From Pseudomonas fluorescens (GTDB taxonomy: Bacteria; Pseudomonadota; Gammaproteobacteria; Pseudomonadales; Pseudomonadaceae), in contig NZ_CP015637.1 in NCBI RefSeq assembly GCF_001708445.1, positions 6,449,001 through 6,513,000 of the forward strand: DNA of 64,000 nt, given 5' to 3'. This document shows, one piece after another, positions 4,086-46,361 of the stretch. Every line of letters starts with the position of its first letter. Within the stretch, counting starts at the first letter, position 1. The notes under the pieces were generated by a model. It was not told where the DNA came from. It did not search any database and worked only from the letters and a program-made list of their open reading frames with translations. Both the position numbers and the translations under genes were made by a program.

Positions 4086-4108
4086 ACGCCCCCTAGTGGG
4101 GCGTTTTG
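4086..4108 (+). terminator. Intrinsic terminator after yidC
   Basis: A 7-bp perfect stem, ACGCCCC (4086-4092) with GGGGCGT (4098-4104), closes a 5-nt loop and runs into TTTT. It lies 26 bp after the yidC stop and 32 bp before the mnmE start. Confidence 0.85.
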
Positions 4109-4139
4109 CTTTCCGTCACTTTTGTTCTGGAACCTGCTG

Positions 4140-5510: not shown

Positions 5511-5523
5511 TCTTTCGTTTTCC

Positions 5524-5553
5524 ACAGGCAGGCCATTCGCGCCTGTCTGTTTC
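5524..5553 (+). terminator. Probable intrinsic terminator after mnmE
   Basis: An inverted repeat, ACAGGC (5524-5529) with GCCTGT (5541-5546), is followed by CTGTTTCTTTC. It starts 13 bp after the mnmE stop. The stem is short and the U-tract interrupted, so strength is uncertain. Confidence 0.55.
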
Positions 5554-5559
5554 TTTCGC

Positions 5560-6057: not shown

Positions 6058-6060
6058 GTG

Positions 6061-21898: not shown

Positions 21899-21943
21899 TG
21901 AAGCTACGAAATAAAGTCTGTCGGAAATAAATAAAGTCTGTCG
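21899..21943. repeat. glmS-proximal transposon end (R-like) with two TnsB-type sites
   Basis: TGAAGCTACGA is followed by AATAAAGTCTGTCG at 21910-21923 and again at 21930-21943. In Tn7 the R end has close-packed TnsB sites containing AATAAAGTC; here only two copies are clear. The end abuts the tniQ gene, whose start is 35 bp further in. Confidence 0.88.
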
Positions 21944-26925: not shown

Positions 26926-28955
26926 TCACTGGTTCTAAGCTGAGAGCACCTGAAGGATTCAAAGGGCTGACGAAGGATGTCGAATACTATTTCCTTGCAG
27001 GTGACGGCAGGGTAAACAGGGCACGCCTTGTATTTTTTGATGAAGAGGGCACGACTGCAAGTTTGCTAACGTTTTCCCGGCCTGAATTTGATCTGGCTCT
27101 GACCAATGGTGATCTTGTGGAATGCGGTAGCGACGCCACACCTCCTTGGTTAATGGCCATCCGTGGCATTTCAGTGGATCAATTGGAAAAAGATCGGGTA
27201 AGGGCAACGAAAAGCTACGATGAAATGGTTAACAAGCGTTACCTCGCCATAGCGGAGTTGGTAGGCCATGCTGAAGAGATCCTCTCTAACGACAATCCCG
27301 AATCGATCATCAACGCTCATGCTGCCAATCAGTCACCTTCTCAGAATGCAGCCCGGTTGAGGTTTTGGTTTTTTAGCTATCTGGTATTCGGCCGCTCGAA
27401 GTGGGCGCTTATGCCCAAGTTCGACCGCTGCGGCAGAGGCAAAAGGGAACAGACCGCAGACGGGCAAATGTTGGGAAGGCCGCCAAAGTCAGGACGCAAA
27501 TCCCGATCTCCTGCTACGGCCCAAATGCAGGCTTCTATCCTGGACGGGTTCATCAAATACAACGATAAAACTAAATCTGACGCTGAAATCTTTGGTGCCG
27601 TGCTGGTGGGTGAATTCGGTTGTATTCCTTTTACAACATCGACAGGAAATAAGAAGTTCTATCACCCCGAAGGTAAGCCTTTCCCCACAAAAGGACAGTA
27701 CGATTACTACCTTGGTCAGGCGATAAGCACCAAGGCATATAGGAAGGCACGTAGAGGTACCAGTGGGGCTCGAGCTAAGTCCGGGTTTGTTGGAAGCTTT
27801 TCCCATGACTTGGTCAATGTAAACCAACTTGTTGAATTTGACGGCTATAACCCCAAAGGCAAGATATCTGGCTTGCTCGAAGGATCCGCTATGGATTCGG
27901 CCTGTATAGTTCGAGGGGTGTGTGGCCAGTCTGGTGCCGTAGTCGCCTTGGGTTTCTCCGAAAACAAAGAAACTATGGAAGCCTACCGCATGGCCCTGTT
28001 CTCGATGGCCATTTGCAAGGTCAAATTTGCGTCGTTGTTTGGTCTGACGATCAGAAAAGAAGACTGGCCGACTTACGGTCTGCCGCAAAACATCGTCTTT
28101 GACCGTGGGCCAGGCTCTACCATGGGCGTACCGATTCGTTCAGAAGCAGTGGCCCGTGGCGAAATGATGAGTTGGTTATCCAGACTTGAACTGACTCCTA
28201 CTCACTCGGGTCAGTCGAAAGCAACGGTTGAATCGTCGCATCCTAGGACCAAATCTGACAATGATCAGCCAACACACTTTCATAGCTCTCTCAACTTTGT
28301 AGAGATATGCAAGCGGCATATTCTGCAAGCTATTTACGATAACCATGTTTCAGATGCTGAAGGGAGAATGACACCTGAGATGTTGGAAGTGGGCTTCAGC
28401 CCCACCCCGCATAACATTTACAAGTTCTATAGTGATCTTGGTTACGATTCCGGCACGGAGGTAAGTTTTGACTACGCCGTGAGAGAATTCCTGACACTTC
28501 ATCCGGCGCACATCAAAAGGAGTGGGGTATATTTTTATGGTCGTAAGTACAATTCATCGAAGCTAATTGACACCGAGGTTTTTGACCGCATTGCGCTCAA
28601 TGGCAAGATACCGGTCAAAGCTTATGTGATGACCATGTGTGTCAGACATATCTGGATCGAATTAGAAGGCGTTTTGTACGAGTTGGACTTTGTAAAGCCG
28701 GCGAGCGTACATCCCAGCAGTGTCGACATTTCGCTGTCGGATCTTCAAGTGCTCAATGAGAATCGGCTGCGCGGCAATGCGGAGCGTCGTGAGGAGAAGC
28801 CCGCAATCCTTCAGGATCGCAATGCCCAATTTTTTCACGCCACAGGCAAAGCCTGGGACAGTGGCACCCGCAAGCCTGGGCGTCCTGCGAAGGGCGGAGC
28901 GGCTGAGCGTGATGCCGCTGACCAGAAGCGGTTGATGGGGAAAGGCAATGACTAA
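26922..28955 (+). CDS. tnsB: Transposase subunit TnsB (DDE integrase)
   Basis: TnsB binds the end repeats and performs 3' strand cleavage and transfer. The 677-residue product has an N-terminal DNA-binding part and an RNase H-like core with Asp307 (QLVEFDGY), Asp394 (NIVFDRGPG) and Glu437 (KATVESSHP). The C-terminal basic tail probably contacts TnsC. It overlaps tnsA by 4 bp and tnsC by 8 bp. The cognate sites should be the AATAAAGTCTGTCG copies at both ends. Confidence 0.95.
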   Translation: MITGSKLRAPEGFKGLTKDVEYYFLAGDGRVNRARLVFFDEEGTTASLLTFSRPEFDLALTNGDLVECGSDATPPWLMAIRGISVDQLEKDRVRATKSYDEMVNKRYLAIAELVGHAEEILSNDNPESIINAHAANQSPSQNAARLRFWFFSYLVFGRSKWALMPKFDRCGRGKREQTADGQMLGRPPKSGRKSRSPATAQMQASILDGFIKYNDKTKSDAEIFGAVLVGEFGCIPFTTSTGNKKFYHPEGKPFPTKGQYDYYLGQAISTKAYRKARRGTSGARAKSGFVGSFSHDLVNVNQLVEFDGYNPKGKISGLLEGSAMDSACIVRGVCGQSGAVVALGFSENKETMEAYRMALFSMAICKVKFASLFGLTIRKEDWPTYGLPQNIVFDRGPGSTMGVPIRSEAVARGEMMSWLSRLELTPTHSGQSKATVESSHPRTKSDNDQPTHFHSSLNFVEICKRHILQAIYDNHVSDAEGRMTPEMLEVGFSPTPHNIYKFYSDLGYDSGTEVSFDYAVREFLTLHPAHIKRSGVYFYGRKYNSSKLIDTEVFDRIALNGKIPVKAYVMTMCVRHIWIELEGVLYELDFVKPASVHPSSVDISLSDLQVLNENRLRGNAERREEKPAILQDRNAQFFHATGKAWDSGTRKPGRPAKGGAAERDAADQKRLMGKGND

Positions 28956-30300
28956 CATCTTTTCTGCACGCTTTGACGGGCTGGACACGCTGGCTGATAT
29001 CCGGCGTTTGATTACAGTGCAACCTGATCCGGTAGCCGGGCTTGAGGAGTTGAGCCCTGCATTGGCCGCTGAGCGTTTGTCAGAGGTACTGAAGACGATT
29101 TTCCTTCCCAACCAGTTTTCTTTGGACTTCATCAAAGATAGCGTTGATCGTGCGCGCAGCTTTTCGGCTGAGAGTTTCTCCACGGACCGGCAATATCAGC
29201 GGCGGCTGTATCACCCCCCTGAGAACGAGGCGTTTCCTATCTGCCTCACCGGCCTTGCAGGGGTTGGGAAGAGCCAAACTATCAGTGCGCTGATGAAGGT
29301 GATGCCTGGACCTGCACCGTATGCATCCGCTCATTACCACGAACCTCATATATTAATCTCGTACTGGTACGCCAGCGCCAGGGGTAAGGCTGGCGGCAGG
29401 CAGCTGTTGGGAGACTTCCTTGGCGGCGACGCAACAGGGGTGAGAGCGAACACGTCCAAGCTTCTGACCGAATGCCGGCGTAGGGTCAATCGTGATGGTG
29501 TATCACTGATGGTGCTCGAAGAAATGCAGCATCAGAGTACTGGGCAAGGCGTAGCCCGGGTGACGGACATATTGCTCACCATGGCCGGGCTTGGGGTTCC
29601 TATGATCTATGTGGCCAACTACAGCCTGGGCCACAAATTGCTGACAAGGAACAGTGAGGACAAGCAACGGCTTCTCTCTGAACCCCGTGTCATGCTACCG
29701 GACCATCCTGACTCGAAGGCCTGGAAGGATTACGTTCTAGAATGCATACGGGTAAGCGGGCGGCGCGTATCTGCAGATCCGAGTGCCCTGATACATGAGC
29801 TGTATCGCTGGACGTTCGGTATAAAGCGCTTGGCGGTACAACTGATCAAGGTGGCGTATCTTGAAGCCCGTGCAGCCCGTCGCCATACGATTACTTTGGA
29901 GGACGTCAATAAAGCATACCTTTCAGCCGCTTACTCCAGTAGTAGGGACGACGTCGAGGAGCTAATTCGCCTCAGCGTTCATAAGAACAAAACCAGGGTC
30001 AGGCCTGACCTTCGTTGCCCGTTCCCGGTGCCGATGCCATCAAACGTCTTGAGCTTTGCCAAGGACGATCGTGCTTCACGGGTGAGCGAGAAGGTTTTTG
30101 TTTCATCCCTTACAGCCGAGGAGCGCAAGAGTTTCGAGCAGCTCCATCCACCGGGTTCACCGTCCAATCTCCCTTCGAAGCCCAAGCGGGAGAAGAAACC
30201 AGCATTGCCCGCGCAAACTCGGGAAGGCTTAGAAGATGCGTACAGCCGACTGCTATCAGAGTCCAAAGGGTCACCTAAGCCCAGAGGGCCTGCAAAGTAA
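28948..30300 (+). CDS. tnsC: Transposition regulator ATPase TnsC
   Basis: TnsC is the AAA+ ATPase that links target selector (TnsD or TniQ) to TnsAB. The 450-residue product has Walker A GLAGVGKSQ (102-110) and Walker B-like SLMVLEEMQH; VTDILLTMAGLGVPMIYVAN follows as the sensor region. The C-terminal 100 residues are basic and proline-rich. It ends the tnsABC operon and faces the sirtuin gene 45 bp away. Confidence 0.93.
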   Translation: MTNIFSARFDGLDTLADIRRLITVQPDPVAGLEELSPALAAERLSEVLKTIFLPNQFSLDFIKDSVDRARSFSAESFSTDRQYQRRLYHPPENEAFPICLTGLAGVGKSQTISALMKVMPGPAPYASAHYHEPHILISYWYASARGKAGGRQLLGDFLGGDATGVRANTSKLLTECRRRVNRDGVSLMVLEEMQHQSTGQGVARVTDILLTMAGLGVPMIYVANYSLGHKLLTRNSEDKQRLLSEPRVMLPDHPDSKAWKDYVLECIRVSGRRVSADPSALIHELYRWTFGIKRLAVQLIKVAYLEARAARRHTITLEDVNKAYLSAAYSSSRDDVEELIRLSVHKNKTRVRPDLRCPFPVPMPSNVLSFAKDDRASRVSEKVFVSSLTAEERKSFEQLHPPGSPSNLPSKPKREKKPALPAQTREGLEDAYSRLLSESKGSPKPRGPAK

Positions 30301-30344: not shown

Positions 30345-31106
30345 CTATGAAGAGGGTGTGGCCTGCAACAGCGCAGGCAACACATTCTCGGCCGAGCCCA
30401 TGAGCATCAGCTCGTTTGGAGCTCCTAGGCAAACGTCTGCAATGTTGACGTGGATGACCGTCGCGCCAGATGTCGACGCGATTTCAGGAATATCCGCCGC
30501 AGGCCTGACGATTCCCGAAGTCCCGACGGAGATCAGAACGTCGCAATTTTTGACGTCAGCCAATGCTGCTTTCCAAGATCCTGAAGGCAGATCCTCTCCA
30601 AACCACACAACTCCGGGTCGGAGTTTCCCATTGCACCGGGTACACCGTGGAGGCTCTACCCATTGTCCTTCTGCAGAGACCTGGAATTGATCAGTTGTGA
30701 GTTCCGCCGGACGCTTGCAGGCAAAGCAGATCGGATTGATCAAGCTGCCGTGCAAATGCACGACGTTCTGAGATCCCGCGCGCTCGTGCAGGTCATCGAT
30801 ATTCTGAGTGATAACCGAAACCTTTATGCCGGTGCTCGCCAGTCGGCTAATCGAAAGATGAGCGGCGTTTGGTTGGGCTTGGCCAGCTTGGGAACGCCGC
30901 CACAGGTACCACCCCCAGACCAGTTGAGGGTTCTCTCGAAAAGCCCGTGCTGTTTCCAACTTTTCAGGGGCGTGTTTCTCCCAAAAGCCTGTGAGCTTGT
31001 CGCGAAATGTTGGAATTCCACTTGCAGCAGAGACGCCGGCGCCGGTGAAAAACACGACTTTTCGAGCAGCGGCCAGGGCTCCGATAGCTCTATCCCAATC
31101 GTTCAT
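30345..31106 (-). CDS. Sirtuin (SIR2/CobB-type NAD-dependent deacylase)
   Basis: The 253-residue product is a complete sirtuin: FFTGAGVSAASGIPTFR, TQNIDDLHERAG, catalytic His in VVHLHGS, zinc cysteines CFACK and CTRCNG, and GTSGIVRPAA. A YLWRR stretch fits the YxxR motif of class III (desuccinylase-type) sirtuins such as CobB. As a transposon cargo gene it could modify host or phage proteins rather than act in core metabolism. It overlaps the small upstream gene by 4 bp, so the pair is an operon. Its stop lies 45 bp from the end of tnsC. Confidence 0.9.
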   Translation of the reverse strand: MNDWDRAIGALAAARKVVFFTGAGVSAASGIPTFRDKLTGFWEKHAPEKLETARAFRENPQLVWGWYLWRRSQAGQAQPNAAHLSISRLASTGIKVSVITQNIDDLHERAGSQNVVHLHGSLINPICFACKRPAELTTDQFQVSAEGQWVEPPRCTRCNGKLRPGVVWFGEDLPSGSWKAALADVKNCDVLISVGTSGIVRPAADIPEIASTSGATVIHVNIADVCLGAPNELMLMGSAENVLPALLQATPSS

Positions 31107-33366: not shown

Positions 33367-34263
33367 TTATGAAAGTAGCTGCTCACTTTGCTTTGGGCTC
33401 ATGTAGGAGTGCTGCTGCGTCCAGTCAATGCTGGAAGGCGATCTACCAGCACACAGCGGATATAGCCAAGACGCTCGACTGCAATGCTTAAAATCAAGGT
33501 AGTAGTTAGGGTGGTGGTCCCACATCGTAGAGTCATTAGTCGGCGCTGTGCAGTTGTACTCGCTGAATTGCAAGTTTCTATTCTCATTGAGAAACTTGAC
33601 GAAACTTGCCAGGCAGCCATGACCACCACCACCCATATGACCATTTAGATAAAAGCGACCGCTATATCCCGATGCAATGTTTAGTTTGTCGTCCTTGCAT
33701 CTGAACATCAGCAAGGTACCGTCATGCGGGCCTGAATTGCCTTCGGCATCCTCAACGGTGCAGAGCCGGACCAGCTTGATACTGATACCGCTACCGCTGA
33801 TAGCTGGCTCGAAAAACTCGTGATAGTTCCCGCCAATTTCTGGATATGAAAACATGGAGCTAGAGCCACTGATTAGCCACTCCAGGCTGCAACTGTAGCG
33901 ATCAGCAATACGTTTGGCCAGATCAAAGGGCAGCGCTTCACGACCGTCGATGCAGTTCATCAGCGTTGCCGGCGACGGTTCCCCCAAGGCCAGCGACAGG
34001 TGAGGTAAATCGCTGCGCTCGTGCCAAGGAAAAACGTTGTCTTCGCGCAAGCGCGCAAATAGCTTTTGCAAGCGCTGGCCTGTAGAGCGCTGCCAGGATT
34101 CACATAAGGACGTCGCCTCAGGCTTGGGCGCATTGAGAGACTCGAGGTAGCGCGCCAGGCCAAACCGTGTTTCCCCCTCTAGGGAGCGTTCATGTCTGGC
34201 AGCTGACTGGAGCAGCAACTGGTGCAAGTTATCAGGAAAGTCGCGAACGCTTAATCTGGCCAT
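33367..34263 (-). CDS. Regulator with N-terminal ribbon-helix-helix and HTH-like segment
   Basis: The 298-residue product starts MARLSVRDFPDNLHQLLLQS, the pattern of FitA/Arc-type ribbon-helix-helix DNA-binding domains. A second DNA-binding-like part (about 70-135) reads like a Cro/C1-type helix-turn-helix ending in a SLEWLISG block, common in mobile-element regulators. The last 160 residues, with a GGGGHG motif and several His/Cys, match nothing I know. A long inverted repeat just upstream is a likely operator. It is transcribed divergently from the 80-residue gene at 34369. Confidence 0.65.
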   Translation of the reverse strand: MARLSVRDFPDNLHQLLLQSAARHERSLEGETRFGLARYLESLNAPKPEATSLCESWQRSTGQRLQKLFARLREDNVFPWHERSDLPHLSLALGEPSPATLMNCIDGREALPFDLAKRIADRYSCSLEWLISGSSSMFSYPEIGGNYHEFFEPAISGSGISIKLVRLCTVEDAEGNSGPHDGTLLMFRCKDDKLNIASGYSGRFYLNGHMGGGGHGCLASFVKFLNENRNLQFSEYNCTAPTNDSTMWDHHPNYYLDFKHCSRASWLYPLCAGRSPSSIDWTQQHSYMSPKQSEQLLS

Positions 34264-35324: not shown

Positions 35325-36545
35325 ATGCGAACGATTGACTCTGTGAGACGCTACCGGGCAGCGCTGGATGCGCGCACCCGTTTGGGTCAAATCCTGACTC
35401 CGCAACCCATGGCTGATGCCGTGCTGCGACTGCTTGGTGCCCAAGGCGGTGATTGGTTGGAGCTTGGATCTGGCTCAGGCCGCTTGGCTCAGGCCGTTCA
35501 TAGTGCAGCGCAGCCGGCAAGTTATACCGGGGTGGAACTTGAACAGGCCATGATCGATGCCAGCCCGCAGCTGAGTGGCGTGCGCTATCTAAAGCGCGAT
35601 GTACTGTCGGTCTCCGGCCTAGGAAAAGCGCTTGGGAACGCCCAATTCGACCATGTGATCGGCAACCCGCCATACGGTATTCACGATCTACCCGCCCGAG
35701 CACGCAAGCGCTTAATGTCCTTCTGCCCCGACCTCGACATTCAACACGCCTGGGCCCCCATCGATCTCTACTTCGTCATGGAGTCATTGACCAGACTCAA
35801 AGCTGCAGGCTCTGCGGCCTTCATTGTGGGCGCTGATATCCCCTGCGCCATCCAGAGCCAGCCATTCCGCAAGCAACTCATCGAATCGGCAAGTTCAGTG
35901 GAATGCTACGAGCTCCCCAGATTCGCTTTCGGCTGGCAGGTCGAGGTTCAGGCCTATGTTCTGGTGATTCGATTCGGACACAAACGACTTCGCCATGTCA
36001 CACTGGGGAAGCTCGACGATGAGTTTGCGTTGATCGCACAACGCAGAATCGGCGTCGCGCAGGCCATCGAAAGCATGGACTCTAGCCACCATGCATTTGA
36101 GGAAATGGATTCTACCCTGAGGCGCGCTCGCGGCTCTGTCACCATGAGAGACCTCAACGTGTCCATCGTCAGGGGAAGTCGAACTCGCACCCAATTTGCG
36201 CAACTTGGTGTGCAGCACTTTCACACGTCGGACTTCCCCAAGTCTGGCCTGGAAATCGCTTTCGAAAGCGCTACATTGCCCGGCTACCAGCACGCCACGG
36301 CCGGAGATATTCTGCTGCCGCGGGTGGGAACTCGCTGCATCGAACGCAAAGCCGTGGTAGTCAGTGGGGAGAGCCCATATTCGGACTCAGTATTCAGAGT
36401 ACGAGCGCCGGCCGAGCACCTGGAGCGAGTCGTGCGCTGGATTACCAGCGCTGAATGCTCGGATTGGCGCCGCGGAGCGGCACGGGGGGCTTGCGCCAAG
36501 CATTTGACCGTCGCGAAACTTCTCGACATGCCCGTACCTGTTTGA
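35325..36545 (+). CDS. N6-adenine DNA methyltransferase
   Basis: The 406-residue product has the order GQILTPQPMADAVLRLL, SAM loop WLELGSGSGRLA (46-54), and the catalytic NPPY at 114-117 in HVIGNPPYG, the gamma-type arrangement of HsdM/Eco57I-like enzymes. The last 150 residues could be a target-recognition domain, since IVRGSRTRTQF and GDILLPRVGTRCIERKAVVV resemble HsdS-like repeats. No restriction endonuclease is adjacent. The next gene, 60 bp on and in the same direction, encodes a SIR2 protein that could serve as effector. Confidence 0.83.
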   Translation: MRTIDSVRRYRAALDARTRLGQILTPQPMADAVLRLLGAQGGDWLELGSGSGRLAQAVHSAAQPASYTGVELEQAMIDASPQLSGVRYLKRDVLSVSGLGKALGNAQFDHVIGNPPYGIHDLPARARKRLMSFCPDLDIQHAWAPIDLYFVMESLTRLKAAGSAAFIVGADIPCAIQSQPFRKQLIESASSVECYELPRFAFGWQVEVQAYVLVIRFGHKRLRHVTLGKLDDEFALIAQRRIGVAQAIESMDSSHHAFEEMDSTLRRARGSVTMRDLNVSIVRGSRTRTQFAQLGVQHFHTSDFPKSGLEIAFESATLPGYQHATAGDILLPRVGTRCIERKAVVVSGESPYSDSVFRVRAPAEHLERVVRWITSAECSDWRRGAARGACAKHLTVAKLLDMPVPV

Positions 36546-36605
36546 AACCAAGAACACGGATCGATTTGGCGCCAAGGGCTGCAACATTACGAAGAGCGAA
36601 AAATC

Positions 36606-37625
36606 ATGCACAGCTTGTTGCTAGGGAATGGCGTCAACCGGGCTGCGTTGCAGAAAGACTGGACACAGATCCTGCGCGAGCTGGCCACACAGTTCGAGGT
36701 AGCAGAGTTGATCGATTATCTGGACGATAAGCCTTTGTCCATGTTCATCGAAGAATTGTGCGCTCGATCACCTGGCGTTTTCCGAGAAACCGAACACGCT
36801 GTGAAAGTGGCATTCGCCAAACTGCTTGAGCAGATCAGCCCTATTGAGGCGCACCGGCGAATATGTGAGCAATTCAAAGTCATCCTCACTACCAACTACG
36901 ATTTCACCATTGAGGAAGCGTTCACAGGCCCACTCCATGCTCCTGCCTTTCTGTCCCCCGAATCTCGATACAGTCTATTCCGTCGCTATAAAGCAGGCGA
37001 AAGGGAGGTCTGGCATATTCATGGCGACTCAGACAGACCCAGCTCAATGGTCTTGGGATACGACCAGTATGCCGGCAGCCTTCAGAAAATCCGTAATTAC
37101 GTCACTGAAGGCGTAGAGATCAAGAAGCTCGGTTACCGCCTCTCCTCTCCGGTCAAGAATGGCGATCTCGATTTCACGTCGAATAAAAGTGTCTATTCTT
37201 GGGTCGATCATTTCCTCAGAGATCACCTACATATCGTCGGATTGGGCATGGATTTCACCGAAATTGACCTTTGGTGGCTGCTCCTCCATAAGCGTAGACG
37301 CCTCAACCAGACAGGCAAAGTTTTTTACTACCAAGCGGGACTTGCTCCCAGCAAAAATACAGCCGCCACGTCACTGATGAAGTCCCTCAACGTGGAAATC
37401 GTTCACGTCGTGGCGGATAGTTGGACCGAGTGCTATCTACACATCGCCGACGAGATCGGACGCAGGGTTAACGCTCACCCTGAACTACTAACCCGACATG
37501 ATCGCTCGACAGGGGGATTTAGCTCCCCGCTACCCCGCAGCCCAAGGCCAAAACAAAAACAGGGAAGTTTCAAATTCCCTGTCACTCCAGAGGATCTGAG
37601 GCGCTTCAAAAGCCTCCGCCCTTAG
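36606..37625 (+). CDS. SIR2-domain protein (putative defence NADase)
   Basis: The 339-residue product belongs to the SIR2-like family of phage-defence proteins rather than to classical sirtuins: LLLGNGVNR at the N-terminus, LTTNYDF (N97), WHIHGD with H139, and IVGLGMDFTEIDLWWLL; zinc cysteines are absent. Related proteins hydrolyse NAD+ when triggered by infection. The C-terminus is basic and proline-rich. It follows the methyltransferase by 60 bp and converges with, and overlaps by 4 bp, the next minus-strand gene. Confidence 0.82.
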   Translation: MHSLLLGNGVNRAALQKDWTQILRELATQFEVAELIDYLDDKPLSMFIEELCARSPGVFRETEHAVKVAFAKLLEQISPIEAHRRICEQFKVILTTNYDFTIEEAFTGPLHAPAFLSPESRYSLFRRYKAGEREVWHIHGDSDRPSSMVLGYDQYAGSLQKIRNYVTEGVEIKKLGYRLSSPVKNGDLDFTSNKSVYSWVDHFLRDHLHIVGLGMDFTEIDLWWLLLHKRRRLNQTGKVFYYQAGLAPSKNTAATSLMKSLNVEIVHVVADSWTECYLHIADEIGRRVNAHPELLTRHDRSTGGFSSPLPRSPRPKQKQGSFKFPVTPEDLRRFKSLRP

Positions 37626-38542
37626 GCCATCTCTACCTCATACCAATGCATGCAATGCACACCCCTGGTACGACCCGGCTTTCGCTTGGGGTGATCGAAA
37701 AGAACACGAGCCTTGCGTTGGTCGGCGCAATACAACGCCGCTCCGATCGCCATCGGCTTAGTACCGAACGGGCAGATGGCCAAGCGGTTGCATTCGCTTC
37801 TCGAGGTGAGTGCCGAAGTGGCCGTCATGAGCAAATCATAAGCAGCTTTCGGGTTATTCGCCCCGCAGTACTTAACGTTCGCTTTGGACGTTTCCAGCAG
37901 TCGACTGTTGGCCATGAACGCCTCAAGGTCCCAGGTCGCCTGGAAAGGAGGGATTCCAAATACGATGGTAACCTTTCGAAAATGCTGACCATCATCTTCA
38001 TTGAGCTTCTGGGTGAGTCTCCCACCTTCAAAGCCCAAGAACGCGACAAGATGCACCGTATCACTCGGGGTGAGCAATGGGATGAATGGTGGAATCGGCT
38101 GCCTTGAAAAGCCACTGCTAAGATCAAAGGCCGCACCGTGAACCGCTGGTTCTTCAAGGTTGCGGCGTACATATTCCTTTGGCTCGACATACAAGAATCC
38201 GACCCTCGGCTGCTTGTTCGAAAAGGTATACGCATAAAGCAGGAGCGCGATTTCCGAAAAATCTAAAGAGGTAGCGTCTACTACGATTGAGACCGCCCTG
38301 TGATCCCGACAAAAGTCCTCAAATCCGGCGTCAGTGACACGGTACTGCTTTCCGCCAACATGCAGAACTAAAGCCTCAGGGTCATATCGCACTTGTACAC
38401 TCCGGCGCGCCAACAGCCTTGAGCGCGCGACTGAATAATCGGTACGGTCATCCAGACCCTCCACCCCAGTGAAGGCAATTTCCATCTTGGCCAAAGCATC
38501 GAGGCCTGGCTCATCAATCAGGTCTTGTCTGATAAATCGCAC
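37622..38542 (-). CDS. Unknown protein, third gene of the ATPase-phosphoribosyltransferase operon
   Basis: I do not recognise this family. From the GTG at 38542, which has GAGG five bases upstream and sits just after the ATPase stop, the product is 306 residues; a TTG at 38605 would extend it into the ATPase gene and is less likely. The fold looks mixed alpha/beta, with a Rossmann-like segment SIVVDATSLDFSEIALLLY, then VHLVAFLGFEGGRL and KVTIVFGIPPFQATWDLE. Close linkage to the ATPase and phosphoribosyltransferase implies a shared function. Confidence 0.7.
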   Translation of the reverse strand: MRFIRQDLIDEPGLDALAKMEIAFTGVEGLDDRTDYSVARSRLLARRSVQVRYDPEALVLHVGGKQYRVTDAGFEDFCRDHRAVSIVVDATSLDFSEIALLLYAYTFSNKQPRVGFLYVEPKEYVRRNLEEPAVHGAAFDLSSGFSRQPIPPFIPLLTPSDTVHLVAFLGFEGGRLTQKLNEDDGQHFRKVTIVFGIPPFQATWDLEAFMANSRLLETSKANVKYCGANNPKAAYDLLMTATSALTSRSECNRLAICPFGTKPMAIGAALYCADQRKARVLFDHPKRKPGRTRGVHCMHWYEVEMA

Positions 38543-38549
38543 GATAACC

Positions 38550-40568
38550 TCAGAACAGGGATCCAGTGATCTGAGCAGTGATGTCGTCGTCTTGCGAGTC
38601 GACAAGCTGCTTCACCAACGTTTCAAAGTTTGAGTCCGACTGAGACAATATGATGTCGAGCTCCGCTGCAGTGAGCGTGATCTTGCGCCGCTTTCGGTAA
38701 CTGATTCTGAAGTGCGGTGCGTAAATGGCATTCAGAACCAACTCGAATTGCGCTGTGTCCACTTCAGCTTTGTTTTTGGTGTCTTTAGTCTCCCTAAGTA
38801 CCGACCAGATTTTTGCCTCTCGCAAAATAGTCTGAGCATCCGCAGAAAGACCCGACGTGTCAGCCTCGTTGATCGAGAAGTGATTGATCTCTGGCTCGCT
38901 TTGGCTACGGCGCCTGTTATATGCCTCGAAAAGCCCACCGAGACGTCGCGCGAACTCGAGCAGCCGATAGCCCTGCGGGCCTAGCTGCATAATGTCTCCG
39001 AACATGGCATCCGAGACTTGCTTGACCGCGGTCGCCTGGGTGTCGTAGTCGACACGTAGTGGCTCCCCTATGTCATTTGCCGATTTGCGCTGATACCCCA
39101 AAAGCAAAGTGTTGTGACATAGCTCTTGGAAAAACCGCAGGTTCGGCGCTGTTATCTTGCAGAACCGCGAGAAACCGGAGTAGAGGATGTTGGGCCGTCT
39201 AGGCAGGCCAGCGTAGAGATGAAAAAGGCAGCCGTATAGGTTGTTGTCTACCCACCCCCCCTGCTTGTGGAATGGATCTGTCTTGGAGCGGCCGTTGACC
39301 AGCAGTTTCTGGAACAAGCCCAGGGCGTCTTTCCCGGATTGAGTTTTACGATTGAGGATCGCACCAAGCACGACTGTGGCTTCCGGAACATTCTCATTGA
39401 TCAGATCGTCAACCTCAACGGTGCGATCCAATCCTTGAAACTCCAATCCTTTCTTGATCATCTTCCCGACCCGCTGACGAAGCGACTGGTCTTGAAGCGC
39501 CATGCGGGCAATTTCAGGTGCACTCAGTTCGGGGAGGATCTGCTTCACACAGTTGACCACGTCCTGCCGGTACTCTTCAGTAAGCCGGTAGGTCAGATGC
39601 TTCGGATCGTGAAGCAGCTCGGGCCTGAAAGCTGGACAGGAAATCACGCCATCTGCTTGGTAGATTCGGAATAGAAATAGCTCCGCAGCCAAGACATCAA
39701 AGTCGCTATCGCGGGCCAGATACGATTCAAGATCGATCGTTCGAATATCATGGATTTCGGCGATCCGCTCCACGCCACTGGTTTTAAGGTCTGTCACCGC
39801 GTCCCGCTTATGAGCTATGTGCACCGCAATCCGCTGGCTTGGGTGCTTGATTGCATCGCAGACTATTTCACGGTGACGAGGCAACAGGTTCTCGAACTCA
39901 TCCACGAACACGCGAAATGCTATCGACTCCAGGCGTGGCGAATACTTCGCCAGATCCTTCGCCAAGGCGGTAAGGATGACGGAGAAATGGACAAACTGCG
40001 GCACCTGGCAGTGATCAGGGTTACGCACCCAAAGATCGAACTCTGCCATGCTCTGCTCAATCCTCTGGTGCAATGCAGCAATGCTGGGCTCGGGCAATCC
40101 AAGTTGACTAACCAACGTCGCTCCCAGGCGTGCACTTCCAACGCTCAGTGGACCATTGGCCAGGTTCTTGGCCGCATCGATAGTTTTGATGGCCTCGCAG
40201 ATCTCAGCAACCAAGCTCAGCGTAAGGTAGTGGGAGAACGCATGACCATCTTTCTGGCCCTGCAACCATTCAGACGTCATCAGGGAACAGAAGCCGGTGT
40301 CGGGACGGAAATACAATCCAAGGTTCGAAAAAACCTCATCGCTGATGTTCTCCCTGTGACCGCTGAAAGTAGATCCGTGACAGAGGAACTTCAAAAACAT
40401 CGTCTTGCCGCAACCTCGACCGCCCAGGATCCGTACTGACTTCTTGTCTTGGAAAATGCTGATGTGCTGGAAGAACGGTGGAACGATGAATTCCTGAAAG
40501 ACGTCAGGCGGCAGGTTGTCAGCTCGGTTCTTCAGAAACGCATCTGCTAGTGCTGGCATTGAAGTCAT
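38550..40568 (-). CDS. AAA/ORC-CDC6-like P-loop ATPase
   Basis: The 672-residue product has Walker A GGRGCGKTMF (49-58) and Walker B RVFVDEFENLL (about 210), with RIAVHIAHKRDA as the likely sensor strand, as in ORC/CDC6- or KAP-like ATPases of conflict systems. The C-terminal 300 residues are helical with no identified domain. It overlaps the phosphoribosyltransferase stop in an ATGA motif and is followed 7 bp later by the unknown gene. Such large ATPases often sense infection and gate a partner effector. Confidence 0.75.
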   Translation of the reverse strand: MTSMPALADAFLKNRADNLPPDVFQEFIVPPFFQHISIFQDKKSVRILGGRGCGKTMFLKFLCHGSTFSGHRENISDEVFSNLGLYFRPDTGFCSLMTSEWLQGQKDGHAFSHYLTLSLVAEICEAIKTIDAAKNLANGPLSVGSARLGATLVSQLGLPEPSIAALHQRIEQSMAEFDLWVRNPDHCQVPQFVHFSVILTALAKDLAKYSPRLESIAFRVFVDEFENLLPRHREIVCDAIKHPSQRIAVHIAHKRDAVTDLKTSGVERIAEIHDIRTIDLESYLARDSDFDVLAAELFLFRIYQADGVISCPAFRPELLHDPKHLTYRLTEEYRQDVVNCVKQILPELSAPEIARMALQDQSLRQRVGKMIKKGLEFQGLDRTVEVDDLINENVPEATVVLGAILNRKTQSGKDALGLFQKLLVNGRSKTDPFHKQGGWVDNNLYGCLFHLYAGLPRRPNILYSGFSRFCKITAPNLRFFQELCHNTLLLGYQRKSANDIGEPLRVDYDTQATAVKQVSDAMFGDIMQLGPQGYRLLEFARRLGGLFEAYNRRRSQSEPEINHFSINEADTSGLSADAQTILREAKIWSVLRETKDTKNKAEVDTAQFELVLNAIYAPHFRISYRKRRKITLTAAELDIILSQSDSNFETLVKQLVDSQDDDITAQITGSLF

Positions 40569-41470
40569 CTCTTAAACAAAGGGGTCCAGTTATCCGATCC
40601 CGCCCAAAGCAGGGACAGCGAATTGTTGGGCGTGGAATGCTCAAATCCGAGTACAAGCTCCAAGCCGTGCCTCGTGGTTGGCGGGATGCCTTTGTCTTTG
40701 GCCAACTGATCGTAAAACGCACGTGCGTCCGCAACGGTGTTGGTGTCATCAATCGCCCACAGGCCCGGGGTCTTTACTGACTCACTGAAGAACTGATGAC
40801 GCGCCTCCAGTACTTCTATGGGCAATACAGTCAGCCAAGGGCTTTTCTCGAACGCTTTTACGCCCGCCCGGAAAGCTACGAATGGGCAATACACCATGTG
40901 CACGCCTTCAAGCTCCTCCAGCTTGTTATCGCGTACAAAGTCCTTGAACTGCTTGCCCGTTCCCAGCATGTCGTCAACAAACACGAGGCACTTGACCTGC
41001 TCGGGCAGCGGATGCAGCTTGTCCGGCCGACAGGTGAGGATCTTGTTGATACCTGCGTGGCGTTTGTAGTGGCGGATGATGACCGCACCACTTTTCCCTG
41101 TATCGGATGCCTTTTGGCCATCGACACCCACAAAACGCAACGGGTAGGACGAGTCCGGCTTACCTAGTGCCTCAAGGAAAGCCTCGATACTCGAGTGCGA
41201 ATAGAGTTCGTGTTGGCGGAGATATGCAGGGAGTACGCAATGCAGCAACTGGTCGATCGAGCTTTCGATCATGCTCTGTGAGCGGAAAATCAGCCGCTCC
41301 AAAACGCGGGAAGCGAAATATAGTTCTTCATCGCTTTGGAAGTTGTCGAGCCAGCGGTCGAGGGTTGATTCCTCAGTGCCGGTGATCACTCCTCGCTGCA
41401 GCATGCCTTTAAAACGACGCTCGACTTCGCTGTAAAGGGAGTAATACCTTTCGGGGACGTGGAAGGGCAT
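40565..41470 (-). CDS. Phosphoribosyltransferase-like protein
   Basis: From the ATG at 41470 (AGGA six bases upstream) the product is 301 residues. LVFVDDMLGTGKQF is the PRPP-binding loop of phosphoribosyltransferases; the N-terminal 130 residues are helical. The family resembles phosphoribosyltransferase-like proteins which, as I recall, were proposed as parts of bacterial conflict systems. It heads a three-gene operon with the ATPase and an unknown protein. The frame continues open for 69 codons upstream, but that part lacks family features. Confidence 0.78.
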   Translation of the reverse strand: MPFHVPERYYSLYSEVERRFKGMLQRGVITGTEESTLDRWLDNFQSDEELYFASRVLERLIFRSQSMIESSIDQLLHCVLPAYLRQHELYSHSSIEAFLEALGKPDSSYPLRFVGVDGQKASDTGKSGAVIIRHYKRHAGINKILTCRPDKLHPLPEQVKCLVFVDDMLGTGKQFKDFVRDNKLEELEGVHMVYCPFVAFRAGVKAFEKSPWLTVLPIEVLEARHQFFSESVKTPGLWAIDDTNTVADARAFYDQLAKDKGIPPTTRHGLELVLGFEHSTPNNSLSLLWAGSDNWTPLFKR

Positions 41471-41817
41471 GGAGCATCCTTTGCTAATGTGGCTTTGGAC
41501 TCGATAGAGAAACCAACCTCTCCGGAGCACCCTTGGCAGCGTCAATGCTAGCCTTTTGCTAAGATTGCTTCCTCTTGGGAGCCGACGCAAGCATCTTTCG
41601 TCTACCACTGCTCTGTCTCGCTGAACTAAAGGCCGACACACCCCGAACTCCAATAAATCGATAGTGGGCTTGGTCACAGTGATTTTTGCTAGTGAGTGTT
41701 TGGTCCTCGCAAACTCAACGTTAGCCGATAACTACGACAACCATGCTCTTACATCTGTAGGGTGTCCTCGACTGGTTCAGTTACACCACTTCCCGGGACA
41801 CGATCGAGGCAGTAGCA
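41471..41817. promoter_or_regulatory. Divergent promoter region between the two nucleotide-related operons
   Basis: About 350 bp separate the phosphoribosyltransferase and QueC-like starts. I see no strong hairpin, repeat or clear sigma-70 pair. Both operons must be driven from here unless internal promoters exist, so they could be co-regulated. Confidence 0.5.
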
Positions 41818-42486
41818 TTGGAGAAATCGGTGGAAACGGAGCACGAAGTGGAAAAGGAAAAACGGAAGATTGTCGTGCTGCATAGCGGTGGGCTGGACTC
41901 TACTGTCTGCGTACTACTCGCACAATCGCGTGGGCATGAGGTCGTTAGCCTCGGAGTCAGCTACAACCAGCATCATCACGTCGAGCTGGACTATGCAGCG
42001 GCCCAGTGCGCTCGCTTCGGCATTGAGCGAAAGATTGTGTCGGTCGCTTGGAGCAAGCCCGTACGTGAGATCCCAAAAAACCGCTCCATGGCAGAAATTA
42101 AGAAGGGGATTTCGAGTGCCTTCCTTCCAGGCCGCAATGGGATTTTCCTCATGCTGGCTGCGGCCGAAGCAGCGGGGATAGGCGCTGACGAAGTATGGAC
42201 GGGAATCAACTCGATTGATTTCTCCGGCTATCCTGACTGCCGCCCCGAGTTCATCGAAAGTTTCAGAGAGATGCTCTCATACGCTATTCCCAAAGGGCCA
42301 AAGCTTTCCGCGCCGCTGCAAAAGAAGTCGAAGCCTCAGATCGCCAAGCTCGCCCACCGTCTGGGCCTGCAGCGCCATGACACATGGAGCTGCTACAGGC
42401 CAAAAATTGCAGAGGCCGGATTCGTACCATGCGGCGCGTGCGACGCGTGCAAACTCCACGAGTTCGCGTGGCAGGGCATTAAGTGA
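41818..42486 (+). CDS. QueC-like 7-cyano-7-deazaguanine synthase homologue
   Basis: The 222-residue product has the QueC hallmarks: PP-loop SGGLDSTV (23-30), FLPGRNGIFL, INSIDFSGYPDCRPEF, and zinc cysteines in WSCYRP and CGACDACK. QueC converts 7-carboxy-7-deazaguanine to preQ0 using ATP and ammonia. QueC-like proteins also occur in phage-defence operons (QatC, CBASS Cap9). Housekeeping queC genes sit with other que genes, but here the neighbours are a nuclease, a SIR2-kinase and a deoxyribosyltransferase. Start is uncertain: GTG codons at 41830 and 41848 both have GGAG six bases upstream. It overlaps the next gene by 4 bp. Confidence 0.87.
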   Translation: MEKSVETEHEVEKEKRKIVVLHSGGLDSTVCVLLAQSRGHEVVSLGVSYNQHHHVELDYAAAQCARFGIERKIVSVAWSKPVREIPKNRSMAEIKKGISSAFLPGRNGIFLMLAAAEAAGIGADEVWTGINSIDFSGYPDCRPEFIESFREMLSYAIPKGPKLSAPLQKKSKPQIAKLAHRLGLQRHDTWSCYRPKIAEAGFVPCGACDACKLHEFAWQGIK

Positions 42487-43721
42487 CGGAGTTTTTGGAG
42501 AAGGCCCGCGTGAATACAGTTTGTTTGGTCGCTTGTACCAGTAGAAAGGGTGATCAACCGGCAACAGCTGAGTTTATCTACCGGTCACCGCTCTTTTTTG
42601 CTGCGCGCAGCTACGCTCAACGGCGTGCCGATCAATGGTTTATTCTTTCTGCGAAGCATGGACTGCTGTCTCCCGAGGAAGTAATTAACCCTTACAATGA
42701 GTCGCTCCTAGAACAAAGCGAGACGCAACGACAAGCATGGGCTGCAGATGTCCGTAGTGCCTTAAATGCGCGCGTGCCCACAGGGGGGCGTGTCATATTT
42801 TTGGCGGGATCTGCATATCGTTCGTATCTTGCTCCTGCATTCGAGGCAGACGGCCGTGAAACTGCAGCTCCGATGTCGGCGCTGGGGATTGGTAGCCAGG
42901 TATCTTGGCTGCAGAAAGTCGAAAGCGAACACGCACGCCTGTGCTACATTGACCGCTTTTACGCGCTTCTTGAGCGTGTCGCAGCTTTGAATACCGGCTT
43001 GGGTCGGAAACTATCTCAGCAGACGGCTGCATCGGTTAGACACAAACGCGGCATCTACTTTTTCTTTGAAGATGGCGAGATGCGTATGACCTCACCGTTC
43101 GAGCACCGAGTTGTTCGAATCGGCACTCATGCGGTAAGTGTGGGATCGAAGGCCACCCTTTGGAACCGCCTCCGTACGCATCGTGGGGGAGGCAACGGTC
43201 TTGGTAATCACCGCGGATCAATTTTTCGCCTTCACGTGGGCGAATCCCTAATAAGGCGTGGCGCGCTTGAGCCAAACTTCCCTACTTGGGGCAAGGGACA
43301 GTCTGCATCGACCGACGTTCGCTCTGCAGAAGAACAGATTGAACTAGCAGTCTCCGAGCACATTGGAGGTATGGAAGTAGTATGGCTGGAGGTGCCAGAC
43401 ATATCGTCGGCTGATAGTGATCGCGGTTATTTGGAAAGGAATTTCATTGCACTCCTGGCAGGCCCAACGGGGCCATTAGACCTACCAAGTGGAAAGTGGC
43501 TCGGCCGCTGGAGCACACGCGAAGCCGTCAAAAGCTCAGGGCTCTGGAACGTAAATCATGTGTACGAGACATTTGATGCAACGTCCCTAGACGTATTTGA
43601 ACAACACATTGAAGTCGCCGAGGGACTACGTGCTAGAACAGAACAGTCTTTAGCGCCAAATGGATGGCGCCTGCGCATCAAAGAGCGTGAAAACGCGAGC
43701 GGACAAATTGATTTACTATAG
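42483..43721 (+). CDS. DUF6884 and GIY-YIG nuclease-like fusion protein
   Basis: The 412-residue product has two parts. Residues about 10-140 read VCLVACTSRKGD, then YRSPLFFAARSYA, WFILSAKHGLLSPEEV and INPYNESL, the DUF6884 pattern. Residues about 185-370 show the GIY-YIG order: GIYFFFE, VVRIGTHA, an Arg in LWNRLRTHRG, RGSIFRLHVGES, a Glu in YLERNFIALL and an Asn in SGLWNVNHV. This suggests a base-recognition or modification module fused to a DNA nuclease. The GTG start at 42483 overlaps the queC-like stop, and the end is 8 bp before the SIR2-kinase. Confidence 0.8.
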   Translation: MTEFLEKARVNTVCLVACTSRKGDQPATAEFIYRSPLFFAARSYAQRRADQWFILSAKHGLLSPEEVINPYNESLLEQSETQRQAWAADVRSALNARVPTGGRVIFLAGSAYRSYLAPAFEADGRETAAPMSALGIGSQVSWLQKVESEHARLCYIDRFYALLERVAALNTGLGRKLSQQTAASVRHKRGIYFFFEDGEMRMTSPFEHRVVRIGTHAVSVGSKATLWNRLRTHRGGGNGLGNHRGSIFRLHVGESLIRRGALEPNFPTWGKGQSASTDVRSAEEQIELAVSEHIGGMEVVWLEVPDISSADSDRGYLERNFIALLAGPTGPLDLPSGKWLGRWSTREAVKSSGLWNVNHVYETFDATSLDVFEQHIEVAEGLRARTEQSLAPNGWRLRIKERENASGQIDLL

Positions 43722-43729
43722 GGCTGAGC

Positions 43730-45397
43730 ATGGTCAAGGAAAACGATAAAGATAAGGATTTTTGCGATCTTCTGAAGCGGTACCCTCGCGCCATCGTGCA
43801 TTTACGAGCACAAGTCCGCAAGCAACGCTTTGGCACAATCCTTGGAGCAGGAATCAGCGTTGATTTTGGTGCTCCGCAGTGGGGTAAGTTGATCAATGAC
43901 ATCGCTTCAGATCCCGCCGTGGACGCAAAAGATATAGTTGAAGGTAATGCGTTCAAGAGCATGGCAGCCCCCTACCAGACAGAAATTCTCTATCAAAAAT
44001 TTCGAGCCGCGTTTTTTGAAAAAACGACGGATCTATCCCCAGCGGAACAGTTGAACACTGTAGCGGCGGAGTGGCTCACTATTTGTCAAAAATATTTATA
44101 CAAGACACCACCGATCGACATAGCTGCTGAACTACCAAAACACTCCTATATGGAAGCGCTGATCCCACTAGTTCAAAATAGCGCGCTAACTATTAACTTT
44201 AACTTCGACGACTATCTAGAGCGCGCACTCGCGGTAAGAAAGCGCAATAAAGATAAGGGTAACCGCGGCTTCGAGGTTGTCACTGATCCGTGGCCACAAT
44301 TTCGGCGACAAGACTGTGTGATTTATCATCTTCACGGATATGTTCCCGAAGGGCTTATGGAGAAAACTGTCGACCGTTTTGTATTTTCAGAGGCTTCGTA
44401 TTCAAAGCAATATGTAGGCTCTCGGGGTCACGACTCGTCATTTCTTTTGGCTCACTTAGCTAGAAATACCTGCCTGCTAATCGGCTGTTCACTAGAGGCA
44501 GAACTTAGAAATGTTTTAATGCGAGGCGCCGAGACAAATCCCGGAAACTTTCACTACTATTGTCATTGGATTCAAAATAGGGAAACCCTTTCCGAAATCG
44601 AACAACAGCTAATTTCCGAGACAAATTTCAAAGTCTATAATCTAATAACGCTTTTTTTAACATCTTCAGAAGTTAGATTGCTACTAAAACTAATAAATGA
44701 GGATGCTATTTCTGACGGCAAACTTAGTGACCTGGCGACACGCAGCGGCACTCCTCTGCAATACACTTTCTATATGACTGGCGCCCTAGGAGTTGGTAAG
44801 AGTACGACTACCAGTCATCTCCGCAACCTGAACGTTTTGGACGAGTGGCTCGAACCTCGGCCCGATGTGTTAGGTATCCCGTGGGACAAACTGACGGAAG
44901 AGGAGAAAGTTTTCACAGACAACTGGATCGCAGATCAATTTACGAAAAAAAATGACACGCTTCGGTATGAGAAACAAGCCGTAATCAGTGTTGTTGACCG
45001 TCCACCGCTTGACCCATTAGTTTTCACGGCTAGTAATGAGAGATCCGCCAAGGCAGAATTCCTAGCGAATCACATATGCCCTGATGATGGACACGGCGGC
45101 TACGGTATCGAAAAAGGCGTCGTCATCCTGTTGCTAGGTGATCCCAAAGAGCTGTCGGCCCGAGTACGTGCCACAGGCAGGGATAAATATACTGAGAAGA
45201 AACTGGAGGCTATGCAGAAGGACATGAGGGATCTATACGAACCCATGCCGGGCACCATCACAATCGATACTCAGTTTATGGGTATTGCGGAGCTAACGAA
45301 GCGAGTCGCCGAAGTCATACACCGCCAGAAATACGAGCCGGCGGATCTGACTCAAAAGCTGCGGAGCTACATAGGAGCAAACAGTGGATCTGTTTGA
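43730..45397 (+). CDS. SIR2 domain fused to nucleoside/nucleotide-kinase-like P-loop domain
   Basis: The 555-residue product joins two enzymatic domains. The N-terminal SIR2-like domain has TILGAGISVDFGAPQW (GAGIS 39-43), LTINFNFDDYLERAL and YHLHGY with His202, but no zinc cysteines, as in defence NADases. The C-terminal domain has P-loop GALGVGKST (351-359), VVDRPPLDP and an Arg-rich lid RVRATGRDKY, like deoxynucleoside or thymidylate kinases. A nucleotide ligand may be made or sensed by the kinase part and NAD+ destroyed by the SIR2 part. The DNA is AT-rich. The 3' end overlaps the next gene by 14 bp. Confidence 0.8.
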   Translation: MVKENDKDKDFCDLLKRYPRAIVHLRAQVRKQRFGTILGAGISVDFGAPQWGKLINDIASDPAVDAKDIVEGNAFKSMAAPYQTEILYQKFRAAFFEKTTDLSPAEQLNTVAAEWLTICQKYLYKTPPIDIAAELPKHSYMEALIPLVQNSALTINFNFDDYLERALAVRKRNKDKGNRGFEVVTDPWPQFRRQDCVIYHLHGYVPEGLMEKTVDRFVFSEASYSKQYVGSRGHDSSFLLAHLARNTCLLIGCSLEAELRNVLMRGAETNPGNFHYYCHWIQNRETLSEIEQQLISETNFKVYNLITLFLTSSEVRLLLKLINEDAISDGKLSDLATRSGTPLQYTFYMTGALGVGKSTTTSHLRNLNVLDEWLEPRPDVLGIPWDKLTEEEKVFTDNWIADQFTKKNDTLRYEKQAVISVVDRPPLDPLVFTASNERSAKAEFLANHICPDDGHGGYGIEKGVVILLLGDPKELSARVRATGRDKYTEKKLEAMQKDMRDLYEPMPGTITIDTQFMGIAELTKRVAEVIHRQKYEPADLTQKLRSYIGANSGSV

Positions 45398-45863
45398 TCA
45401 CAATCGGCCGCTTGTGTACCTCGCGGCCCCCCTTTTTTCAGAAGCCGAACTTGACTTCAATCTCGCTCTAACGGAACGAATTGAGGCAAGCTTGGATGTC
45501 TATCTACCACAGAGAGACGGCGGCAAACTCGTTGATTTGCTGGCTTGTGGTGTAGAAAAGCGAGCAGCCTACAAGTCGATTTTTGACCGTGACGTGCGAG
45601 CTCTAGAGGCCGCATGTGCGGTAATAATCGTACTTGATGGACGTACGATCGATGAAGGCGCAGCGTTCGAGCTCGGGTACGCCTATGCTCAATCAAAGCT
45701 TTGCTTCGGCCTCCAAACCGATCCCCGACGTCTACTGCCGTCAGGAAATAATCCGATGATCGAAATGCCGCTGCAAAAGATTTTCCATAGTATCGAGAGT
45801 GCTGGCGAGTGGGCCGACTTGTTCGCTCGTTCTCAGATAAGGTCGATGTCGCGCAGGCACTAG
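45384..45863 (+). CDS. Nucleoside 2-deoxyribosyltransferase-family protein
   Basis: The 159-residue product fits the family in length and motifs: VYLAAPLFSEAE at the N-terminus, VIIVLDGRTIDEGAAFELGY with the likely nucleophile Glu96, then DPRR and NNPMI. These enzymes move deoxyribose between nucleobases or hydrolyse the N-glycosidic bond. It starts with GTG behind AGGAG, overlaps the SIR2-kinase by 14 bp, and is the last gene before the transposon end. Together with a QueC-like enzyme and a kinase it could complete a route to a deazaguanine deoxynucleotide; this is inference. Confidence 0.85.
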   Translation: MDLFDHNRPLVYLAAPLFSEAELDFNLALTERIEASLDVYLPQRDGGKLVDLLACGVEKRAAYKSIFDRDVRALEAACAVIIVLDGRTIDEGAAFELGYAYAQSKLCFGLQTDPRRLLPSGNNPMIEMPLQKIFHSIESAGEWADLFARSQIRSMSRRH

Positions 45864-46224: not shown

Positions 46225-46361
46225 AGACAGACTTTATTTAGTAGGTCGAACGGCAACGCCCCATAAAAATGGCGTTGCGACAGACTTTATTTCTGATCAG
46301 CCCACCGGCTAGCCCTTGTAATTTCTGGGCGCGATCCGACAGACTTTATTCCGTGGGATCA
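46225..46361. repeat. Distal transposon end (L-like) with three TnsB-type sites
   Basis: CGACAGACTTTATT, the reverse of the proximal motif, occurs at 46278-46291 and 46337-46350, and with one mismatch at 46225-46238. Spacing is 53 and 59 bp, like the dispersed sites of the Tn7 L end. The outermost motif is 11 bases from the proposed terminus ATCA at 46361, equal to the proximal end. Confidence 0.88.

Follow-up and report, generated by a model that had tools for sequence, protein, structure and literature searches.

A 64,000-nucleotide stretch of Pseudomonas fluorescens DNA (NZ_CP015637.1, positions 6,449,001 to 6,513,000, assembly GCF_001708445.1; hereafter the window) was found to carry an operon that consists of a two-gene core and a two-gene add-on. 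The core is formed by a SIR2-kinase fusion (SIR2K) and a nucleoside 2-deoxyribosyltransferase (NDT). The add-on is formed by a QueC paralogue, of the 7-cyano-7-deazaguanine synthase family, and a DUF6884 plus GIY-YIG-like protein, referred to here as gene 2. The division was drawn because NDT was present at 20 of the 20 SIR2K loci collected (window included), gene 2 at 11 and QueC at 8. We tentatively read the operon as a mobile anti-phage system built on SIR2K and NDT that works by the mechanism proposed below.

All four genes lie on the forward strand. The QueC paralogue occupies 41818..42486, with a likely start at the GTG at 41848, and gene 2 occupies 42483..43721, with a likely start at the GTG at 42510, the equivalent of which is the start of many gene 2 homologues. 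SIR2K (43730..45397) and NDT (45384..45863) follow. An earlier note on this DNA had called the same four open reading frames (ORFs); these were borne out, and family scans agreed with their assignments. The start codons are less certain than the note had stated, and the kinase and GIY-YIG-like parts required fold evidence in addition to the scans. The sequence sets A1 (37 rows) and A2 (39 rows) each comprised the window's own sequence and a selection from 120 listed homologues.

A gene 2 profile was used to scan genome contigs, with one genome per species across 84,980 species, and 80 of 83 loci were kept. SIR2K was present at 9 of these 80 loci, all 9 of them with NDT, and QueC stood beside gene 2 at 7 (L001-L007). 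The window's order of QueC, gene 2, SIR2K and NDT was repeated at six of the seven QueC loci (L001-L006), which come from Burkholderia, P. rhizoryzae (L002), Sideroxydans, Nitrosomonadales, Sedimentisphaerales (Planctomycetota) and Ectothiorhodospiraceae. The seventh, also from Planctomycetota, had QueC and gene 2 only, and two loci (L011, L012) had gene 2, SIR2K and NDT without QueC. At 53 of the 80 loci, many of them haloarchaeal, the match started at residue 119 or later and therefore lay at or near the C-terminal domain of gene 2. Among recurring, unannotated neighbor families, no clear shared partner was seen for the gene 2 loci without SIR2K.

Further searches showed the core without its add-on. 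Viral contigs added a four-gene operon (L084) and a SIR2K-NDT pair (L085). Plasmids gave a SIR2K-NDT pair behind a KAP ATPase (L089, Rhizobium) and one without gene 2 or QueC (L090, Eleftheria). Pairs lacking gene 2 and QueC were also found at L104-L108, in five Pseudomonas genomes, and at L155, in one further genome of the phylum. L155 also has, 190 bp upstream and in the same orientation, a 577-residue gene that PADLOC did not match. A set of four obligate genes is thus ruled out by the bare pair at eight loci (L085, L090, L104-L108, L155) and also countered by the KAP ATPase locus. The conserved four-gene set that had been proposed does recur, but its minimal unit is SIR2K-NDT: of the co-occurrence predicted for the four families, that of NDT with SIR2K held throughout and that of QueC and gene 2 in part. 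NDT was immediately 3' of SIR2K at 19 of the 20 loci; at L017 it was upstream, with two genes between. The SIR2 gene of L017 is cut by the contig end, so that its kinase half falls outside the contig; it was counted among the 20 loci, and the SIR2K tree omits it together with L155.

Full-length SIR2K is rare: with the window genome counted, it was found in 6 of 398 Pseudomonas, 1 of 369 class and 2 of 398 phylum genomes. These counts leave out partial SIR2-domain matches (L097-L103, L110, L111, L148-L154) and a Klebsiella plasmid match, H3, covering 43% of the query. No NDT adjoined L097, the sole partial match whose surroundings (L109) were examined. Three of the five Pseudomonas SIR2K matches were flagged with one internal stop, and ORFs of 539-546 residues span the gene. 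No copies were found in E. coli complete genomes, nor SIR2K in phage records. In a protein search, SIR2K homologues of the two-gene type were assigned to Pseudomonas aeruginosa, with 53 member sequences, to Pantoea dispersa and, for a partial protein, to Klebsiella pneumoniae (P0252, P0284, P0289).

The SIR2 domain of SIR2K spans residues 12-328 (43763..44713, plus strand), resembles those of ThsA, KomC and DSR2, and retains His202 in the window. Residues 344-536 (44759..45337, plus strand) carry a P-loop and DEW and DRPPLDP motifs, and the predicted structure gives this half a thymidylate-kinase (TMPK)-like deoxynucleoside monophosphate (dNMP) kinase fold. The fold, P-loop and DR motif expected of thymidylate kinases are all present. 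The fusion of SIR2 with a P-loop kinase that was reported earlier therefore stands, with its kinase now specified. The SIR2Ks of four-gene operons cluster in the tree with a support of 91/85, which is below the starred level, and on long branches.

NDT scored 69.2 bits against PF05014 (cut-off 28.8). The catalytic Glu, Asp and Asn-x-Met of the family are present (Glu96, Asn123 and Met125 in the window), and none of the 20 core NDTs has lost them. We take the roles of these residues to be those of the L. leichmannii enzyme. Among solved structures, 7O62 is the closest (E 3.9e-36, or 2.2e-47 from an NDT of a two-gene core); it is a Desulfotalea psychrophila NDT according to passages of PMC9570332. 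A Tyr-Glu active site common to NDTs and Thoeris EcThsB2 is likewise described in part of PMC11204291. These data support the deoxynucleoside chemistry suggested earlier. Relatives of the core NDT were also seen in Lactococcus, Bacillus and other phages (27 records, H54-H80); these could possibly serve in counter-defence or reflect shared nucleotide chemistry.

The operon QueC scored 160.5 bits against TIGR00364 (cut-off 150.3), and alignment showed the YxQxHxxE, RN, YPDC and CY signature and the four zinc cysteines, the latter as the note had claimed. This signature is taken from passages of PMC13329287, which also list the residues essential in E. coli QueC: the Tyr of YxQxHxxE, the Arg of VPxRN, the Tyr of YPDC and the Tyr after the first zinc Cys. 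Unlike in QatC, these essential residues are conserved in the operon QueCs. The deviations are a first zinc spacing longer than C(x)8C, an RN loop that reads LPGRN and, at L005, a Ser in place of the His of YxQxHxxE. The nine operon QueCs, collected only through gene 2 or SIR2K searches, form a single clade against 15 housekeeping QueCs (support 100/100), and their bearers span two phyla. A QueC-like ORF (82 bits) that lies 1.6 kb from a stand-alone domain at L022 was excluded from this count. All eight genomes (window and L001-L007) have a separate housekeeping QueC (231-273 bits) and QueD, and 7-carboxy-7-deazaguanine (CDG) should therefore be available to the operon enzyme. The separate copy and the distinct clade rule out a housekeeping role for the operon QueC. 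Each of the five bare-core Pseudomonas genomes has a single housekeeping QueC and lacks the operon type.

L017, from Lachnospiraceae, has the order NDT, transporter, gene 2, SIR2K. The transporter matches the queuosine precursor transporter family TIGR00697 (123.5 bits, cut-off 50.95), and this metagenome-assembled genome, of untold completeness, gave no match to QueD and none to QueC that exceeded 22 bits. Because of this combination, the transporter is the strongest sign in the sequences that the gene 2 form may need a 7-deazaguanine base, and it supports the 7-deazaguanine link proposed earlier. Independent QueC-NDT neighborhoods are seen on a Streptosporangium plasmid (L112) and in the published QueC sequence similarity network Cluster 4, which passages of PMC13329287 describe with PfkB-NDT; the motifs given there differ from those of the operon QueC, and membership in that cluster was rejected. 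The Streptosporangium genes (2234-5474) form a QueD-QueE-x-QueC-NDT-TIM barrel-epimerase-HAD cluster without SIR2K, perhaps a deazaguanine natural-product pathway. Two of the bare cores lie near queuosine genes (L104 and L106 near queA, L106 also near tgt), which may mark an integration hotspot only.

Gene 2 is a fusion of the PADLOC candidate models PDC-M57A (118.4 bits) and PDC-M57B (237.2 bits), so that the DUF6884 and C-terminal domain combination was already on record as a candidate. The DUF6884 domain (42519..42917, plus strand) belongs to the YaaA/DpdC superfamily and has CxxxK and LSAxxG motifs. DUF6884 has been reported as the DpdC family, which gives a concrete reason for a QueC beside gene 2, and DpdC acts on dPreQ0 in DNA. 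The PADLOC DpdC model matched gene 2 with 16.9 bits (E 7.9e-4); gene 2 and a 304-bit DpdC share the CxxxK and SAxxG motifs, with a profile E of only 0.01. The GIY-YIG-like domain (43002..43553, plus strand) has a precomputed PF26468 match. GIY-YIG was absent among the best 50 Foldseek matches listed and appeared in a second look. The SIR2 and nuclease-like domains named in the note are supported, and a nuclease activity may be inferred from the latter.

The genomic setting points to mobility. Judged from the sequence around it, the operon forms the final part of the cargo of a Tn7-like element (21910-46350) inserted after a gene with SIS and GATase domains (20042-21874), which we take to be glmS-like, and the cargo of the element resembles a defence island. 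Two exact GACAGACTTTATT repeats (21910..21942, minus strand) are presumed left-end sites, and three more (46226..46350, plus strand), about 0.4 kb past the NDT stop, presumed right-end sites; six copies were found with at most two mismatches, compared to 0.81 expected. The element encodes TniQ (21978-23141) and TnsD (23602-25308). Three undiagnosed genes (25963-30300) are at the position expected for TnsABC. Their identity as TnsA, TnsB and TnsC was considered and set aside: none of the three had a PADLOC match, those at 25963 and 26922 had no Pfam match, 28948-30297 had AAA matches below cut-off, and no PDB match was obtained for 26922 and 28948, the two that were queried. About 140 bp from the operon and divergent from it is a minus-strand set of a CARF6-like protein, an ORC-CDC6-like ATPase and a PRTase-CE (37622-41677), a candidate for another conflict system. 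At 35325-37625 there is an Eco57I-like methyltransferase (below the Pfam cut-off) followed by a SIR2_2/AbiH-like protein. The element also contains a PF02146 sirtuin (30345-31106) and a protein that starts with a FitA-like ribbon-helix-helix (33367-34263, minus strand).

Other loci gave a similar picture. L084 and L085 are set among phage genes, and L002 and L105 among conjugative-element genes. PADLOC (E of at most 0.001) matched 12 of 15 neighbor proteins from other loci, which were hand-picked and not random, and therefore provide support and not a rate. The matches included type III restriction (L006), type II restriction (L007), Hachiman HamB (L105), Gabija GajA and GajB (L107), a DndH-like protein (L155) and the L089 KAP ATPase, besides weaker matches. 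The KAP ATPase is large and QatA-like (4360-7998; 75.9 bits, below the cut-off of 600) and stands directly before SIR2K-NDT, perhaps as a second module that feeds input into the core. The defence-island position proposed for the operon is thus upheld by mobile settings with defence neighbors at several loci.

Gene content, conservation, catalytic residues and mobile settings, together with the predicted folds of genes 2 and 3, the defence neighbors and the separate ancestry of QueC, suggest the following mechanism. NDT would exchange or remove bases on 2'-deoxynucleosides or dNMPs. When infection alters the dNTP pool, the kinase domain would phosphorylate or bind the resulting non-canonical deoxynucleotide, which would switch the SIR2 domain on. 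SIR2Ks with the His, including that of the window, would then cleave NAD+ and cause abortive infection. This logic would be that of Kongming, in which dITP activates a SIR2 NADase, with the kinase built in. In the four-gene form, the QueC paralogue would make preQ0 or 7-amido-7-deazaguanine (ADG) from host CDG, and NDT would put the 7-deazaguanine base on deoxyribose. The DpdC-related DUF6884 domain would act on this base in a nucleotide or in DNA, and the fused GIY-YIG-like domain would cut the marked nucleic acid. The deazaguanine deoxynucleotide may serve as a signal, as a phage DNA mark or as a protein adduct. A bolder version, which we consider possible and rather doubtful, is that QueC, NDT and the SIR2-fused dNMP kinase, with no need of DpdA, make a free dPreQ0 or dADG phosphate, which is an immune second messenger or, once built into DNA, a mark by which a DpdC-like/GIY-YIG nuclease is directed to replicating phage DNA. 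In this version SIR2K-NDT would also be a general effector cassette with interchangeable input modules (QueC with DUF6884-GIY, a KAP ATPase, or none).

Two observations weigh against our reading. Asn replaces His202, the proposed catalytic residue of SIR2, at 14 of the 20 loci, with Asn158 and Asp160 unchanged, so that NAD depletion should not be taken as given throughout the SIR2K family. A universal NADase effector is weakened by this change. Also, the L011 genome has QueC and no QueD match, which is an imperfect fit to a deazaguanine need.

An unlikely alternative that still carries real weight is that the operon QueC joins 7-deazaguanine to an operon protein and so primes that protein, as with Cap9 and QatC, and that the base never becomes a nucleotide. 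The QueC-family enzymes of type IV CBASS and Qat are read in this way in passages of PMC13279940 and PMC13329287, the canonical QueC core is kept by Cap9 (in the part of PMC13329287 that describes it) as well as by the operon QueC, and a QatA-like KAP ATPase precedes SIR2K-NDT at L089. In CBASS, and by proposal in Qat, a long flexible tail carries the acceptor, an N-terminal Gly, according to passages of PMC13279940. However, no conserved Gly2 was found at candidate starts of gene 2, SIR2K and NDT in the eight four-gene loci, where a single candidate start, that of the L003 NDT, has Gly at position 2. A helix is predicted at the N-terminus of SIR2K, the NCBIfam model for QatC gives a score of 16.9 (cut-off 280), and NDT and the dNMP-kinase fold would be left unexplained. 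We give somewhat less credence to restriction, in which DUF6884-GIY would recognize 7-deazaguanine in phage DNA (type IV-like) or its absence after self-marking (Dpd-like), with the SIR2 core as a separate back-up. The activity of DpdC on dPreQ0 in DNA would fit, as would the existence of phages with dPreQ0, dADG, dG+ or dPreQ1 (reported in part of PMC6884629) and the occurrence of gene 2 or its C-terminal domain without SIR2K at 71 of 80 loci, some on short contigs. On the other hand, no TGT/DpdA was found in the operon or the neighbors scanned (the remainder of the genome was not searched for DpdA), which leaves no known route for the base into DNA, and QueC would be superfluous if modified phages were merely restricted.

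It is less probable still that two unrelated modules, QueC/DUF6884 of queuosine type and SIR2K-NDT for defence, adjoin without shared chemistry. SIR2K-NDT pairs lacking gene 2 do occur, as does gene 2 in the absence of SIR2K, and L007 has QueC and gene 2 only. Yet the operon-type QueCs stand with SIR2K-NDT in 8 of 9 cases and with gene 2 in 9 of 9 (a biased figure, since 7 of the 9 were found via gene 2), and the four-gene SIR2Ks group together at the support given above. Overlaps and short gaps between the genes also speak for a joint function, as does the deazaguanine transporter in place of QueC at L017. A role outside defence, in nucleoside salvage or secondary metabolism, seems very improbable. 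NDTs occur in salvage, and the Streptosporangium QueD-QueE-QueC-NDT cluster does without SIR2K. Against this role stand the SIR2 fold of phage-defence NADases, the position as prophage, conjugative or Tn7-like cargo, the defence neighbors and the patchy distribution (6 of 398 Pseudomonas genomes).

If the mobile anti-phage reading is true, nucleotide-based bacterial immunity would extend to 7-deazaguanine deoxynucleotides, which would help to account for the recurrent QueC genes in defence operons. DUF6884-GIY (PDC-M57) would gain a chemical role, and the NDT family with the solved relative 7O62 a physiological role beyond its biocatalytic use. Mass spectrometry could test the deazaguanine link directly. 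Taken singly, the parts have precedents, known or proposed: SIR2 effectors, NDTs, QueC in defence and PDC-M57. The set of SIR2K, NDT, QueC and gene 2 was not found in the literature searched (titles, abstract starts and passages, with few subscription papers covered), nor was the name PDC-M57 found in any paper of it; within this literature the combination, the two-gene core and the TMPK-SIR2 fusion appear undescribed.

Comparison with known systems places the operon as follows. The operon resembles PDC-M57, itself a candidate, in that one half of gene 2 is matched by the M57A model and the other by M57B, but here the two are fused into one protein, whose operon also encodes QueC, SIR2K and NDT. 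As in QueC Cluster 4, a QueC-family gene adjoins an NDT-family gene; the passages of PMC13329287 give that cluster the motifs YGQ(x)6E and CH(x)5CxxCxGCxK and an NDT-PfkB fusion, and mention no SIR2. Qat and type IV CBASS also have a QueC-family enzyme within a defence operon. Unlike in both, canonical QueC residues are kept here and there is no conserved N-terminal Gly acceptor; the QatC match is far below its cut-off (16.9 bits vs. 280), the four genes include no other Qat protein (QatA, QatB with its N-terminal MGTS, QatD), and CD-NTase and Cap10 are absent from the four genes and five neighbors scanned. DUF6884 (DpdC) and preQ0 chemistry are shared with Dpd, but the operon has no DpdA/TGT, DpdB or helicase set, and has a GIY-YIG-like fusion and a SIR2 core. 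Thoeris (ThsA/ThsB), like the two-gene core, pairs a SIR2 protein with an enzyme acting on N-glycosidic bonds, and the Tyr beside the catalytic Glu is common to NDTs and EcThsB2 in passages of PMC11204291; the core differs in having NDT (PF05014) for TIR and the TMPK fold for SLOG. KomA of Kongming is a deaminase. In that system, KomA, a phage deoxynucleotide kinase and host NDK turn dAMP into dITP, which activates the SIR2 NADase (passages of PMC12774641 and PMC12948488). SIR2K has the KomC-type SIR2 subunit feature, but the four genes lack the KomA and KomB (HAM1-like) families and have NDT in their place, the TMPK-like domain is fused to SIR2, and there is no evidence for dITP here. Because each of Kongming, Thoeris, Qat, CBASS and Dpd differs from the operon in at least one tested defining feature, we file it outside them, as a SIR2-effector, nucleotide-controlled defence variant.

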